The translations under genes were made by a program, and so were the position numbers. 64,000 nt of DNA, taken from positions 62,001 through 126,000 of the forward strand of contig JAGIAR010000007.1 in the NCBI GenBank assembly GCA_017744735.1, in the 5' to 3' direction. Positions 11,960-54,001 of the stretch are shown in pieces. Positions within the stretch are counted from its first letter, which is position 1, and each line of letters opens with the position of its first letter. The stretch is from Novosphingobium sp. GTDB lineage: Bacteria > Pseudomonadota > Alphaproteobacteria > Sphingomonadales > Sphingomonadaceae. A model generated the notes under the pieces. That model was not told where the DNA came from, ran no database searches, and was given only the letters and a program-made list of their open reading frames with translations.

Positions 11960-14900
11960 TCACGAACTGTAATAGTCCTGAAGCGAGCGCACTTCAAGTT
12001 GGCTCGCTTTCAGGCCCGCGATCGCCCTCGCCACCGCGTCGGATGCCGCCGCGGTGGTGTAATAGGGCAGCTTCATGATCAGCGCGGTCGCGCGGATCGA
12101 TTGGGAGTCCTTCAGGCTCTGCCAGCCTTCGGTGGTGTTGAAGATCAGCGCCACCTCGCCATCGACGATCTTGTCGACCACGTGCGGGCGGCCTTCGGCG
12201 ACCTTGTTGACCCGCTCGACCGGCAGGCCGTTCTCGGCCAGGAACTGCGCGGTGCCGCCGGTCGCGATGATCCTGAAGCCCTGTTCCACCAGCAGCTTCG
12301 CCGCCGGCAGGATCACCTGCTTGTCGCTGTCCTTGACCGATATGAACACCGTCCCGCCCTGAGGCAGCACCATGCCCGCGCCGAGCTGCGCCTTGGCGAA
12401 GGCGATCGGGAAATCGGCATCGATGCCCATCACCTCGCCGGTCGACTTCATTTCGGGCGACAGCACCGGGTCGGTCCCGGGGAAGCGCGCGAAGGGGAAC
12501 ACTGCCTCCTTCACTGCCATATAGGGCACGTCGCGCTTGATCGCGGGGAGGTCTGCCAGCTTGGTGCCGGCCATCACCCGCGCGGCCATCTTGGCGACCG
12601 GCTGGCCGATCGCCTTGGCGACGAAGGGCACCGTGCGGCTGGCGCGCGGATTGACCTCGATCAGATAGACCTTGCCGTCCTTCACCGCGAACTGGATGTT
12701 CATCAGGCCCTTCACGCCCAATGCCATCGCCAGCGCCTCGGCCTGGCGCTCCATTTCCGCGATAATCTCCTGCGGCAGGCTGTAGGGCGGCAGGGTGCAG
12801 GCGCTGTCGCCCGAATGGACGCCGGCTTCCTCGATATGCTGCATCACCCCGGCGATCACCACCTGCTCGCCGTCGCACAGCGCATCGACGTCGCATTCGA
12901 TCGCATCGCGCAGATACTGGTCGATCAGCACCGGGCTGTCGCCCGAAACGTTGACCGCGGTGGCGATGTAGTCGTCGAGCTGCGCCTCGCTGTCGACGAT
13001 CTCCATCGCGCGGCCGCCGAGCACATAGCTCGGGCGGATCAGCACCGGGTAGCCGATGCGGTTGGCCACCGCGACCGCCTCGTCGCGGCTGCGCGCGATG
13101 CCGTTGGCCGGCTGGAGCAGCTTGAGCTGGTTGACCAGCTTGGCGAAGCGCTCGCGGTCTTCGGCGAGGTCGATCGCGTCGGGCGAGGTGCCGAGGATCG
13201 GGATCCCGGCATCCTCGAGCGCCTGCGCCAGCTTGAGCGGGGTCTGCCCGCCGAACTGCACGATCACGCCGAGCAGTTCGCCGGCCGACTGTTCGACCCG
13301 CAGGATCTCGAGCACGTCCTCGGCGGTCAGCGGCTCGAAATAGAGCCGGTCCGAAGTGTCGTAGTCGGTCGAGACCGTTTCCGGGTTGCAATTGACCATG
13401 ATGGTCTCGAACCCGTCTTCGGCCAGCGCGAAGCACGCGTGGCAGCAGCAGTAGTCGAACTCGATCCCTTGCCCGATCCGGTTCGGCCCGCCGCCAAGGA
13501 TCACGATCTTCTGGCGGTCGGAAGGCTGCGCCTCGTCCTCGGCCGCGCCGAAGCTCGGGGCCTCGTAGGTCGAGTACATATAGGGCGTGACCGCCTCGAA
13601 CTCGGCCGCGCAACTGTCGATCCGCTTGAACACCGGCAGCACGCCCAGCTTGTGGCGCAACTTGCGCACTTCCTCTTCGCTGGTCGCCCCCGCCATCGCG
13701 CGCACCGCATCGTGCAGCAGGCCCGAGCGGGTGGCCTGGGTCTCGCCCAACCCGCCTGCGACATGGACCGAGCGCACCGCCAGCGTGGCGAGCCGCTTGT
13801 CCGAAAAGCCCATCGCCTTCAGGCGGCGAAGACCCGCCGCATCGTTCGGCAGCCCGTCTTTCGAAATGCGCTGCTCTTCCTCGACGATCTGGCAGATGTG
13901 GCGCAGGAACCAGGGATCGAAATGAGTGATCGCCTGCACTTCGTCGACCGTGAAGCCCTCACGGAAGGCCTGCGCGATCTGGAGGATGCGCTCGGGCGTG
14001 CGGCGCGAGAGCGCGGCGGTGATCTGGTCGCGCCCCGCACCTTCGAGCGCGAGCACGCGGTTGAACCCGTCGAGCCCGGTTTCGAGGCCGCGCAGCGCCT
14101 TCTGCATCGATTCCTTGAAGCTGCGGCCGATCGCCATCACCTCGCCGACCGACTTCATCGCGGTCGACAGCGTCGGCTCGGCGCCCTTGAACTTTTCGAA
14201 CGCGAAGCGCGGGATCTTGGTCACGACATAGTCGATCGTCGGCTCGAAGCTCGCCGGGGTCGCCCCGGTGATCTCGTTGGTCAGCTCGTCGAGCGTGTAG
14301 CCGACCGCCAGCTTCGCCGCGACGCGGGCGATCGGGAAGCCGGTCGCCTTGGAAGCCAGCGCCGAACTGCGCGACACGCGCGGGTTCATCTCGATCACGA
14401 TCAGGCGGCCGTCCTTCGGATTGACCGCGAACTGCACGTTCGACCCGCCGGTCTCGACCCCGATCTCGCGCAGCACCGCGATGCTCGCGTTGCGCATGAT
14501 CTGGTATTCCTTGTCGGTCAGCGTCAGCGCCGGCGCGACGGTGATGGAATCGCCCGTGTGGACGCCCATCGGATCGACGTTCTCGATCGAGCAGATGATG
14601 ATGCAATTGTCATGGCGGTCGCGCACGACCTCCATCTCGAACTCCTTCCACCCGAGGAGCGATTCCTCGATCAGGACTTCGGTGGTGGGGCTGGCGTCGA
14701 GGCCCGAGCGCACGATCGCCTCGAACTCGGTGCGGTTGTAGGCGATCCCGCCGCCGGTGCCGCCGAGGGTGAAGCTCGGGCGGATGATCGCCGGCAGGCC
14801 GGTGGTCTCGAGCACCTTGTTGGCTTCCTCGACCGTATGCGCGACGCCGCTGCGCGCGCTTTCGAGGCCGATCTTGTCCATCGCGTCGCGGAACCGCTGG

Positions 14901-15286
14901 CGGTCTTCCGCCTTGTCGATCGCGTCGGCATCGGCGCCGATCATCTGCACGCCGAACTTCTCCAGCGTGCCGTCGTTGAACAGGGCCAGCGCGCAGTTGA
15001 GCGCGGTCTGCCCGCCCATCGTCGGCAGCAGCGCGTCGGGGCGTTCCTTCTCGATGATCTTGGCGACGATCTCGGGGGTGATCGGCTCGACATAGGTCGC
15101 ATCGGCCATTTCCGGATCGGTCATGATCGTGGCGGGGTTGGAGTTGACCAGGACCACGCGGTAGCCCTCCTCCTTCAGCGCCTTGATCGCCTGGGTGCCG
15201 GAATAGTCGAACTCGCAGGCCTGGCCGATGATGATCGGGCCGGCGCCGATGACGAGGATCGAGGAGATGTCAGTGCGTTTGGGCAT
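11960..15286 (-). CDS. carB: Carbamoyl-phosphate synthase large subunit
   Basis: CarB makes carbamoyl phosphate from bicarbonate, ATP and ammonia delivered by CarA, feeding pyrimidine and arginine synthesis. At 1108 residues it is full length: two ATP-grasp halves (first opening [20 protein letters not shown], second around [19 protein letters not shown]), an oligomerisation domain between them, and a C-terminal MGS-like allosteric domain ([26 protein letters not shown]). Its partner carA lies upstream on the same strand but is separated by 521 bases holding an oppositely oriented DUF559 gene and repeats, an unusual interruption of carAB. Confidence 0.98.
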
Positions 15287-15308: not shown

Positions 15309-15351
15309 CCCCTCTCACCCTTCAGGGGGAGAGGGGTTGGGGAGAGGGGGG
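15309..15351. repeat. Palindromic repeat, left boundary of DUF559 module
   Basis: This 43-base element reads CCCCTCTCACCCTTCAGGGG and continues GAGAGGGGTTGGGGAGAGGGGGG. It contains its own hairpin (CCCTTCAGGG type) and, as a whole, is an imperfect inverted copy of the element at 15736-15791. The two therefore bracket the DUF559 gene like terminal inverted repeats. It begins 22 bases upstream of the carB start codon. Confidence 0.7.
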
Positions 15352-15361
15352 ACGCTCGCTC

Positions 15362-15724
15362 ATGGCCAAACGTCACGGACCCACGCGAGAGCGTGCGAAA
15401 GAATTGCGAAAAAACATGACGGCGCCCGAGCAGGCGCTGTGGGCGATCGTCCGCGCGAAGCGCCTTGGCGGGGTCAAATTCGTCCGGCAGGCGGTGCGCG
15501 CGCCGTTCATTCCCGACTTTGCAGCGCGTGCCGAGCGGCTGATTGTCGAACTGGATGGCGACACCCACTTCGCTCCCGGCGCGGAAGCCTACGACGCGCG
15601 GCGAACCGCCCTGCTTGAAGATCAGGGCTGGCGCGTGCTGCGCATCCCCAACAACGAGGTCATGTCCAACCCCGATGGTGTCGCTCGCGCGATCCTGATC
15701 GCTTTGGGAAGAGATTTTGAATGA
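15362..15724 (+). CDS. DUF559 family protein (Vsr-like PD-(D/E)xK nuclease fold)
   Basis: This 120-residue basic protein belongs to DUF559, a family related to very-short-patch-repair endonucleases. It has the N-terminal RAKELRKNMTAPEQALWAIVR helix (here quoted in part), then the nuclease core: Asp52 in PFIPDF, Glu63 and Asp65 in LIVELDGDTH, and the C-terminal strand WRVLRIPNNEV typical of the family. All expected acidic residues are present, so it may be active. It is oriented against carA and carB, between which it lies, and is bracketed by inverted palindromic repeats. No own regulator is visible. It may be a mobile or selfish module; its natural substrate is unknown. Confidence 0.88.
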   Translation: MAKRHGPTRERAKELRKNMTAPEQALWAIVRAKRLGGVKFVRQAVRAPFIPDFAARAERLIVELDGDTHFAPGAEAYDARRTALLEDQGWRVLRIPNNEVMSNPDGVARAILIALGRDFE

Positions 15725-15735
15725 CCTGAGCGCGG

Positions 15736-15791
15736 CCCCCCTCTCCCCGGCGCTGACGCGCCGACCCTCTCCCCCTGAAGGGGGTGAGGGG
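15736..15791. repeat. Palindromic repeat, right boundary of DUF559 module
   Basis: This 56-base element starts CCCCCCTCTCCCC, has an inserted small hairpin GGCGCTGACGCGCC, and ends with CTCTCCCCCTGAAGGGGG and TGAGGGG. Apart from the inserted hairpin it is the reverse complement of the left element at 15309-15351 with few mismatches. It follows the DUF559 stop by 11 bases and ends 16 bases before the carA stop codon. Confidence 0.7.
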
Positions 15792-15807: not shown

Positions 15808-16974
15808 TCACTGAAGCATCCCCACGAACTTCTCGAACAGGTAGAAGCTGTCCTGCGGACCCGGGCTCGCCTCGGGATGGTACTGCACCCCGAACGCCTG
15901 CTTGCCCTTGATCGCGATCCCGCAGTTCGAGCCGTCGAACAGCGAGACGTGGGTCTCCTCCACCGCGTCGGGCAGCGCCGAATTGTCGACCGCGAAGCCG
16001 TGGTTCATGCTGGTGATCTCGACCACACCGTCGCTCAGCCGCTTGACCGGGTGGTTCGCGCCGCGGTGGCCCTGGTGCATCTTGACCGTCTTCGCGCCCG
16101 CCGCGAGGCCGAGCATCTGGTGGCCGAGGCAGATGCCGAACACCGGCACGTCGCGCTCGAGCAGGCCCTGGATCACCGGCACCGCATAGGCGCCGGTGGC
16201 CGCCGGATCGCCCGGGCCGTTCGACAGGAACACGCCCTTGGGGTTCAGCGCGAGGATCGCCTCCAGCGGGGTCTCGGCCGGCACCACCGTCACCTTCGCT
16301 CCGGCCTTTACCAGATTGCGGAAGATGTTGTCCTTGGCGCCGTAATCGACCGCCACGACATGCGGGCGCTCCTCATAGGGCGACCGGCCGTAGCCCGACC
16401 CGAGCTTCCAGACATTGCCTTCCCAGTCCTGCTCGTGCGCGCGGCTAACGATCTTGGCGAGGTCCATGCCCTCGAGCCCCGGCCAGCTCCGCGCGCGTTC
16501 GAGCAGCGCGGGAATGTCGAACTTGCCCGAAGGTTCGTGCGCGATCACCGCATTGGGTGCGCCCTGCAGGCGGATCCGGCGGGTCAGCGCGCGGGTATCG
16601 ACCCCGGCGAGGCCGATCTTGCCGGCGGCCGCCAGCCATTCGCCGAAAGTCCCGGCCGAACGGAAGTTGGAAGGATCGGTTACATCCTCGCGCACCACGC
16701 AGCCGACCGCGCCCTCGACCCGGGATTCGATATCCTCGTCGTTGGCGCCGACGTTGCCGATATGGGGGAAGGTGAAGGCGATGATCTGCCCGGCGTAGGA
16801 CGGGTCGGTCAGCGATTCCTGATAACCGGTCATCGCGGTGTTGAAGCACACCTCGCCCACCGCGCTGCCGGTGGCGCCGAAGCCCTTGCCCCACACCACG
16901 GTTCCGTCGGCAAGCACGATGACTCCCGTCGCACCTTTCGGTTGTGGCGCAGACGAAGAGGCGGGGTCGGCCAT
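15808..16974 (-). CDS. carA: Carbamoyl-phosphate synthase small subunit (glutaminase)
   Basis: CarA hydrolyses glutamine and passes ammonia to CarB. The 388-residue protein has the CarA N-terminal domain (GEVCFNTAMTGYQESLTDPS) and a C-terminal class I amidotransferase domain with nucleophile Cys282 in GICLGHQ, and His366 and Glu368 in VQYHPEASPGP. It is full length. carB lies downstream on the same strand, beyond the inserted DUF559 module, so read-through across the two palindromes would be needed for joint transcription. Upstream, it is divergent from yqeY across 154 bases in which I see no clear regulatory motif. Confidence 0.98.
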   Translation of the reverse strand: MADPASSSAPQPKGATGVIVLADGTVVWGKGFGATGSAVGEVCFNTAMTGYQESLTDPSYAGQIIAFTFPHIGNVGANDEDIESRVEGAVGCVVREDVTDPSNFRSAGTFGEWLAAAGKIGLAGVDTRALTRRIRLQGAPNAVIAHEPSGKFDIPALLERARSWPGLEGMDLAKIVSRAHEQDWEGNVWKLGSGYGRSPYEERPHVVAVDYGAKDNIFRNLVKAGAKVTVVPAETPLEAILALNPKGVFLSNGPGDPAATGAYAVPVIQGLLERDVPVFGICLGHQMLGLAAGAKTVKMHQGHRGANHPVKRLSDGVVEITSMNHGFAVDNSALPDAVEETHVSLFDGSNCGIAIKGKQAFGVQYHPEASPGPQDSFYLFEKFVGMLQ

Positions 16975-17586: not shown

Positions 17587-17660
17587 TATCCTCTCCCCTC
17601 GCGGGAGAGGATAGCGTAGCTTGCGCCCGAAGTGGCGCTAGTGAAGCTTGGAGAGGGGGC
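17587..17660. repeat. REP-like element, first of an inverted doublet
   Basis: The element opens with a near-perfect hairpin TATCCTCTCCCCTCGCGGGA followed by GAGGATA, continues AGCGTAGCTTGC, has a variable hairpin (GCGCCCGAAGTGGCGC) and ends AGCTTGGAGAGGGGGC. The first 37 bases match the element at 53930 with one mismatch. There is no T-tract and it occurs in several places, so it is a dispersed repeat. Being just downstream of the yqeY stop, it may still affect mRNA ends. Confidence 0.75.
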
Positions 17661-17670
17661 GTTACGTGCC

Positions 17671-17741
17671 GCCCCTCTCCAACTCCGGCTACGGCGACAA
17701 GTCGCCAAGCCTCCGTATCCTCTCCCGCGAGGGGAGAGGAT
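17671..17741. repeat. REP-like element, second of an inverted doublet
   Basis: This is the same repeat type in reverse orientation: GCCCCTCTCCAACTCCGGCT, a variable hairpin (GGCGACAAGTCGCC), then GTATCCTCTCCCGCGAGGGG ending AGAGGAT. It closely matches 53850-53919. Together with 17587-17660 it makes a tail-to-tail doublet. Confidence 0.72.
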
Positions 17742-17752
17742 CATGTCGTGCA

Positions 17753-17843
17753 CAGGGTTATCACGTGATCCGCTTCTGGAATCACGACGTTTTGGATAAT
17801 CTTGCGGGCGTTCTATTTCGGATCGAACAGGTGCTTGCGGACA
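17753..17843 (+). pseudogene. C-terminal remnant of a DUF559 gene
   Basis: About 30 codons in one frame read QGYHVIRFWNHDVLDNLAGV and then LFRIEQVLADR. This is the typical C-terminal strand and helix of DUF559 proteins and aligns with the intact copy at 15362 (QGWRVLRIPNNEVMSNPDGV). The N-terminal nuclease core is missing and replaced by the repeat doublet, so this is a decayed copy. It is directly followed by the same palindrome type that follows the intact gene. The 332-base gap between yqeY and dnaG is filled by this remnant and the repeats. Confidence 0.75.
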
Positions 17844-17880
17844 GGCCCTCCCCCAACCCCTCCCTGAAGGGGGGGAGACC
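17844..17880. repeat. Palindromic repeat following the DUF559 remnant
   Basis: The sequence GGCCCTCCCCCAACCCCTCC followed by CTGAAGGGGGGGAGACC matches the right boundary repeat of the intact DUF559 module (CTCTCCCC, ACCCTCTCCCCCTGAAGGGGG) in the same orientation relative to the DUF559 frame. It ends 33 bases before the dnaG start codon. Confidence 0.68.
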
Positions 17881-17913
17881 GAGAGCCCTCGCGCCTCTCG
17901 CACGGAGTGAGTA

Positions 17914-53849: not shown

Positions 53850-53919
53850 ACCCCTCTCCAACTGCGGCTAGGCGACACGTCGCCAAGCCTGCGTATCCTC
53901 CCCCGCAAGGGGGGAGGAG
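53850..53919. repeat. REP-like element, first of an inverted doublet
   Basis: ACCCCTCTCCAACTGCGGCT, a variable hairpin GGCGACACGTCGCC, then GTATCCTCCCCCGCAAGGGG and GGAGGA. It matches 17671-17741 closely (same order of parts). It lies just after the ilvC stop. Confidence 0.72.
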
Positions 53920-53929
53920 CACCCCTTCC

Positions 53930-54001
53930 TATCCTCTCCCCTCGCGGGAGAGGATAGCGGAGCTTGCCGCGTAAGCGGTTAGCGCAGCTTGGAGAGGGGG
54001 C
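53930..54001. repeat. REP-like element, second of an inverted doublet
   Basis: TATCCTCTCCCCTCGCGGGA followed by GAGGATAGCGGAGCTTGC; the first 37 bases differ at one position from 17587. A variable hairpin and AGCTTGGAGAGGGGGC follow. The two units here are in the opposite order to the 17.6 kb doublet. The rest of the 232-base ilvC-yceI gap shows nothing else. Confidence 0.75.

Follow-up and report, generated by a model that had tools for sequence, protein, structure and literature searches.

The gap between carA and carB in the 64-kb stretch of DNA analysed here (the window) is occupied, at 15309-15791, by a 120-aa DUF559 nuclease gene that lies antisense to both neighbours and is bordered on either side by inverted units, each composed of a hairpin and a G-rich tail (Table 1). 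These limits and the antisense placement of the gene are exactly those given by a previous description made from the letters alone (the sequence-only reading). In each unit, the GC-rich hairpin stands outermost and is followed gene-ward by the G-rich tail (TTGGGGAGAGGGGGG at the left), and the tails contain no T-runs. The two ends had also been described as imperfect inverted copies of each other, each palindromic in itself, and this description holds: the arms at 15309-15335 and 15765-15791 are 93% complementary over 27 nt, and DNA folding gives each arm its own hairpin, at -11.6 kcal/mol for the left arm (15309-15355) and -19.2 kcal/mol for the right one. A second pair of arms is found at 15339-15355 and 15732-15748. 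When the arms are aligned in register, the main difference is a 13-nt inner hairpin carried by the right arm only.

Table 1. Features of the carA-carB element and of the other repeat elements in the window (positions counted from the first letter of the window)
Feature	Position	Strand	Evidence or remark
carB	11960-15286	-	intact
Left outer hairpin, CCCCTCTCACCC-TTCA-GGGGGAGAGGGG	15309-15336		inverted repeat I1; DNA fold
Left inner tail, TTGGGGAGAGGGGGG	15337-15351		repeat I2; hairpin-and-tail layout recurs at other DUF559 loci
DUF559 (PF04480) Vsr-fold nuclease gene, 120 aa	15362-15724	+	ORF, profile, conservation, structure model
Right inner tail, CCCCCCTCTCCCC (left tail inverted)	15736-15748		inverted repeat; alignment and fold
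Extra inner hairpin (GGCGC-TGAC-GCGCC), right arm only	15749-15763		alignment and fold
Right outer hairpin, ACCCTCTCCCCCTGAAGGGGGTGAGGGG (left hairpin inverted)	15764-15791		inverted repeat I1; fold
carA	15808-16974	-	intact
MITE-like element, gene-less and belonging to a different repeat class, between the GatB/YqeY gene and dnaG	17588-17743		aligns with the solo element at 53.9 kb with a score of 101
DUF559 C-terminal relic (PF04480 positions 79-108)	17747-17836	+	junction occupied by an intact DUF559 in eight other loci
Repeat remnant, right end of the DUF559 relic	17846-17882		repeat search; alignment and fold
Third window element, gene-less tail-hairpin-hairpin-tail unit	53850-54000		same class as the 17.6 kb element

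The window protein is recognised by the PF04480 profile with E = 2.2e-33 and 114.9 bits (gathering cut-off 20.6), and it matches DUF559, not Y1_Tnp (PF01797). The acidic residues singled out by the sequence-only reading, Asp52, Glu63 and Asp65, do stand at the positions named; among 90 homologues, D52 and D65 are at least 90% conserved, while E63 is invariant together with E23, W27, G66 and H69. The AlphaFold model of the protein (pLDDT 91) is matched by the DUF559 crystal structure 3hrl (Z 16.0), by the catalytic domain of I-Bth0305I (3r3p, Z 12.9) and by Vsr (1cw0, Z 10.7 over 99 residues at 2.5 A). Sequence profiles agree with the matches to 3hrl-type DUF559 and to I-Bth0305I, and the EDxHD homing endonuclease profile is matched with E = 7e-5. 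Between close pairs of repeat-flanked DUF559 loci, dN/dS ranges from 0.05 to 0.18, and the DUF559 protein is therefore kept functional. A role in anti-phage defence was considered and rejected, the PADLOC search giving a weak partial match to the long protein Hhe only (E = 7e-4, 14.9 bits).

The sequence-only reading had pointed to flanking palindromes as something other DUF559 genes might share, and a comparison extended to several hundred bacterial genomes bears this out. Flanks were scored by the best local alignment between the 300 bp to the left of the domain and the reverse complement of the 300 bp to its right, and controls used this geometry after a shift of 850 bp. Among the 109 DUF559 domains collected in 119 genomes (same family, plus the genus), a score of at least 40 is reached by 78 of 106 loci (74%; median 58), as against none of 209 shifted controls (maximum 28); a general lack of palindromes around DUF559 genes was thus not found. 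Loci beyond the family, gathered by a genome-contig search with a three-sequence alignment, behave similarly, with 51/75 loci at or above 40 versus 0/143 controls (one locus whose flanks consist of Ns, L247, being omitted), and they span alpha-, beta- and gamma-proteobacteria, Nitrospirota, Thermodesulfobacteriota and others. When the same geometry is slid over the window, the carA-carB element is the sole position with a score of at least 40 (44; 631 positions, median 20). It could be argued that such inverted repeats arise spuriously from GC-rich flanks, given that the repeats are low-complexity C/T versus G/A tracts and that a score of 30 occurs at about 2% of window positions. Chance or base composition is nevertheless hardly credible as an explanation, since no control reaches 40 when 74% of the loci do, and since one DUF559 subfamily present in the same genomes (L005, L010, L011, L017, L020, L021) lacks flanking repeats and provides an internal negative control. 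Members of this repeat-free subfamily largely share their genomic neighbourhoods and appear to be vertically inherited; they are possibly a domesticated form. In Neisseria gonorrhoeae, a DUF559 gene of the 3hrl type (L314) has a hairpin-plus-tail motif on both flanks, in direct rather than inverted orientation.

The sequence of the repeats follows the lineage of the nuclease. Over 85 loci, repeat similarity and protein similarity are correlated with a Mantel coefficient of 0.40, no permutation exceeding 0.19 (p about 0.001), and the coefficient is 0.35 (largest of 1000 permutations 0.16) when homologous-site pairs are removed and left arms are compared with right arms only, both measures being meant to exclude shared flanking genes. 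DUF559 genes residing within one genome have repeats that are no more alike (26.3) than those of equally diverged pairs across genomes (27.5). By these comparisons, the repeats go with the nuclease lineage and not with the host genome.

The same correspondence is seen among dispersed copies, counted genome-wide, as in the source genome, by pattern searches. In the case of class A repeats (GGAGGGGGACC-stem-GGTGGAGGGG), copies are found in 49 of the 119 genomes, with up to 91 copies each, and the reversed pattern has no occurrence in the same pattern search. Class A repeats are present in 35/42 genomes that have a class A nuclease and in 14/77 genomes that do not (odds ratio 22, p = 3e-12, an exact value weakened by the shared phylogeny of the genomes, which are not independent), and they occur in none of the 17 genomes devoid of any DUF559. 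Contrasts in nuclease status within a genus, though few, agree (G037/G122, G040/G124, G031/G119). Exact class A repeats are missing from seven genomes that carry a class A nuclease. Conversely, some genomes rich in class A repeats lack the nuclease. One of these (G016) has the most class A repeats (91), and its class A nuclease is absent above threshold, a state that may reflect either recent loss of the nuclease or movement in trans. For class B, repeats are present in 6/20 genomes with a class B nuclease versus 4/99 others, and 84 of 90 copies lie in genomes with the class B nuclease.

Class A copies are mostly gene-less, because nuclease-bearing genomes hold about 645 of them for about 66 nuclease genes. 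Close plus/minus pairs are bimodal in spacing, being either 42-120 bp apart and gene-less or 382-424 bp apart with a DUF559 gene between them, and 18 of the gene-less pairs have the order found around the gene against one in the opposite order. In the inner stem of class A, 98% of cells are paired, and covariation is 0.437 versus 0.156 after shuffling; the compensating changes show that the hairpin is conserved rather than its letters.

These counts also bear on the possibility that another enzyme, such as a RAYT-type Y1 transposase or an insertion sequence, moves the repeats, and that DUF559 is mere cargo. Class A repeats are indeed somewhat commoner where the genome has a Y1 transposase (15/22 versus 34/97). 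However, a Y1 transposase is found in only 22 of the 119 family genomes and is absent from 34 of the 49 repeat-bearing ones, and the association with the class A nuclease persists among Y1-less genomes (25/31 versus 9/66, p = 2e-10, subject to the same shared phylogeny). Moreover, the repeat that flanks the Y1 (RAYT-like) gene of the source genome (L170, G000:C10:198167-200496), AATTCGGTGACAGTTTACTT, is unrelated, and different DUF559 genes of a single genome can carry repeats unrelated to one another. A passenger role for DUF559 is, on this evidence, improbable.

Evidence of movement comes from sites that are occupied in one genome and empty in another. As the sequence-only reading had anticipated in drawing attention to carA-carB spacing, some relatives (L025, L028) have about 5 bp between these genes and no DUF559, while others hold other content, and the gene is therefore not a constant resident of this position lacking repeats. 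The window element is indeed an insertion at carA-carB. At recN-ligA, one genome (G003) carries the unit, two (G002, G005) are empty, two species hold unrelated ORFs, and in a further genome (G004) the exact position of the G003 gene is taken by a solo hairpin belonging to the same class. In Sinorhizobium, a DUF559 gene lies between two complete hairpin doublets, which we take to be RIME-like units, and Shinella joins the neighbouring genes directly. Solo copies also have empty counterparts, at valS and at guaB-rsmB. Indeed, a gene-less class A element of 135 nt is inserted in frame within valS in the source genome (L165, G000:C12:146048-147549), valS being uninterrupted in three sister species, and another, of 144 nt, lies in frame within truB in a sister species (L164, G001:C3:387683-389194). 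These insertions add about 45-48 residues to the products of genes that are essential or near-essential. No empty site was available among Azospirillum plasmids, all seven near-identical records being occupied.

Insertions recur at particular places. Many DUF559 insertions are found at carA-carB and eight at yqeY-dnaG, with one constant orientation at each of these two tabulated spots. The carA-carB, yqeY-dnaG, recN-ligA and pntA-type junctions are recurrent insertion spots within the family, and in other species they hold unrelated small ORFs. In the DUF559 tree, which is built on 102 columns only and has weak deep branches, many copies are old and have been vertically inherited at fixed places. 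Three of the four carA-carB copies initially labelled as same-family group with L119, and the others lie elsewhere, as L097 and its relatives and as the other-family copies L039, L048 and L049. A single origin of all carA-carB insertions is unlikely given this scatter, and the tree, within the limits of its length, suggests several independent arrivals followed by long vertical inheritance. As for target-site duplication, direct repeats of at least 6 nt at the outer ends are not in excess across 83 loci compared with mismatched pairings, and direct 5-mers within 15 bp of the outer ends show a weak excess in the same comparison. Single direct repeats are suggestive (GTGAGTG at L013, ATGAAG at Sinorhizobium K101, TGTGAA at L016), some of which can be explained by overlap of start and stop codons.

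The strongest rival is homing into existing repeats, whereby the hairpins would be older residents spread by other means, and DUF559 would copy itself into them by cutting repeat-only alleles that are then repaired from a gene-bearing copy. It draws on the fact that the nearest enzyme with known function and structure, I-Bth0305I, is a homing endonuclease, on the solo hairpin found right where the G003 gene stands at recN-ligA, and on the gene-less pairs being oriented like the pairs that surround the gene. Yet gene-bearing copies occur where relatives lack any repeat (the recN-ligA site of G002 and G005, Shinella, carA-carB), and homing is therefore disfavoured as the sole route. Nor does homing into foreign repeats predict the genome-wide dependence of each repeat class on its own nuclease. 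We regard it as unlikely, if less so than the passenger reading.

Alternatively, DUF559 might serve the host as a repair or defence nuclease, the hairpins having been selected as terminators or insulators that shield the operon from it. In Caulobacter, the DUF559 protein VsrA is genetically required for the DNA-damage response that follows loss of a cytosine methyltransferase, is functionally linked to the methyltransferase ScmA, and is read by the authors of that study as a mismatch-repair enzyme (PMC12907096); the link to ScmA is in keeping with a host function, as is the long persistence of many copies at fixed junctions in constant orientation. The requirement for VsrA also lends in vivo support to the view that DUF559 proteins damage DNA. 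Against a host-serving role stand the occurrence of these repeats in hundreds of copies without a gene, the in-frame insertions within valS and truB, the repeat sequence that tracks the protein and not the genome, and tails that are G-rich instead of forming T-runs. Such a role appears very improbable.

Altogether, the segment is probably a minimal mobile element whose lineage-specific Vsr-fold nuclease cuts its hairpins and which is spread by host repair. The earlier proposal of a repeat-plus-gene unit acting as a mobile module is well supported by the recurrent flanks, the co-inheritance of gene and repeat, the dispersed gene-less copies and the empty sites, and on comparative grounds both mobility and the pairing of nuclease with repeat can be regarded as shown. 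One copy would have the layout [hairpin][tail]-DUF559-[tail][hairpin]; the nuclease would recognise hairpin repeats belonging to its own lineage, at which it would nick or cut the DNA; host repair would then copy the unit or re-insert it at other sites, either complete or lacking the gene, usually between operon genes and occasionally in frame within genes. Gene-less pairs and single hairpins would be the non-autonomous offspring of this process, MITE- or REPIN-like. Action of the nuclease on the palindromes can be inferred with good reason from the cognate matching, the conserved catalytic residues, the purifying selection and the predicted fold shared with I-Bth0305I and Vsr. The nuclease is presumed to be the mobilising enzyme and to act on the repeats, and insertion is presumed to rely on host repair, PD-(D/E)XK enzymes hydrolysing DNA and not being known to join strands or to transpose on their own. 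Some observations weigh against this reading: no target-site duplication stands out statistically; many copies are old, and movement need not be active today; class A repeats and their nuclease can occur apart, in either direction; and VsrA has been read as a mismatch-repair enzyme.

Proteobacterial genomes are full of short palindromic repeats, and many of these families have no known mover. The present comparison of sequences suggests that DUF559 genes and their private hairpin repeats travel and multiply together as a type of minimal mobile element not previously reported, and that the DUF559 nuclease is a candidate mover for bacterial repeat families previously without one. A likely role thereby emerges for DUF559, whose function was previously unknown, from its matching to repeats class by class. 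No literature tying DUF559/COG2852 to such repeats was found in open-access full texts, and an earlier report may exist elsewhere. If the nuclease alone drives movement, the mobility enzyme would be far smaller than known transposases, and mobility would stem from a fold that is otherwise familiar from repair, restriction and homing; the question is directly testable with a 120-aa protein and 50 bp of DNA. A broader proposition is advanced tentatively, as a real possibility that falls somewhat short of an even chance: these elements would form a widespread new class of autonomous elements, having as their sole protein a 110-130-aa Vsr/PD-(D/E)XK nuclease that works on lineage-specific hairpins, would have arrived at the RAYT-REP strategy independently, and would be the source of most proteobacterial intergenic repeats of the 'CCCTCTCC...GGAGAGGG' type, including RIMEs.

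Several known systems share part of this organisation. As in an insertion sequence or a MITE, terminal inverted repeats and empty sites are found for DUF559 elements. Rickettsia palindromic elements lie in frame inside protein genes, as some of the copies described here do, the difference being that an associated nuclease family is identified in the present case. RPE-4 and RPE-6 have been grouped with the CGTC-tagged REPs of alphaproteobacteria, which are stated to have no dedicated transposase (PMC3733652), and the RIMEs of Rhizobium are dispersed palindromic repeats whose function is described as unknown (PMC2573895). Like CGTC REPs and RIMEs, DUF559 repeats are dispersed palindromes in the same bacterial groups (PMC3733652, PMC2573895). 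An identity with CGTC/dRS3 repeats was rejected: among the loci scanned, only one DUF559 locus has at least two CGTCATTCC-type motifs nearby, and the window element has none.

On the enzyme side, the DUF559 protein shares the catalytic-domain fold of EDxHD homing endonucleases and a sequence relationship with them (I-Bth0305I; PMC3943268). Unlike these, it is a free-standing single domain of 120 aa with no separate or linked DNA-binding module, and its gene lies outside any intron or intein and is bracketed by hairpin repeats. The fold is also that of Vsr (Z 10.7), and Caulobacter VsrA carries a DUF559 domain (PMC12907096). Unlike Vsr, however, the window protein scores 16.8 bits with the TIGR00632 (Vsr) profile, far under the family cut-off of 97.85, and no cytosine methyltransferase adjoins its gene.

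The closest parallel in architecture is the RAYT/REP system, in which an enzyme gene is flanked by two inverted palindromic repeats matched to its lineage, and gene-less inverted doublets are abundant (PMC2817692). Like RAYT/REP and REPINs, the DUF559 system places one small enzyme gene between two inverted palindromes, its repeats match the enzyme lineage, and gene-less copies are dispersed as inverted doublets. The analogy with RAYTs drawn by the sequence-only reading thus stands for the architecture and fails for the enzyme, which is a Vsr-fold DUF559 nuclease and not a RAYT, i.e., an HUH Y1 transposase (PF01797). The GTAG tag of REPs is also missing from the window arms (15309-15361 and 15725-15791 inspected); DUF559 repeats have instead a hairpin with a G-rich tail, for example TTGGGGAGAGGGG. 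We conclude that the window element is a mobile REP-like element, the dedicated enzyme of which would be a nuclease of the Vsr fold, where RAYT/REP systems have an HUH transposase.
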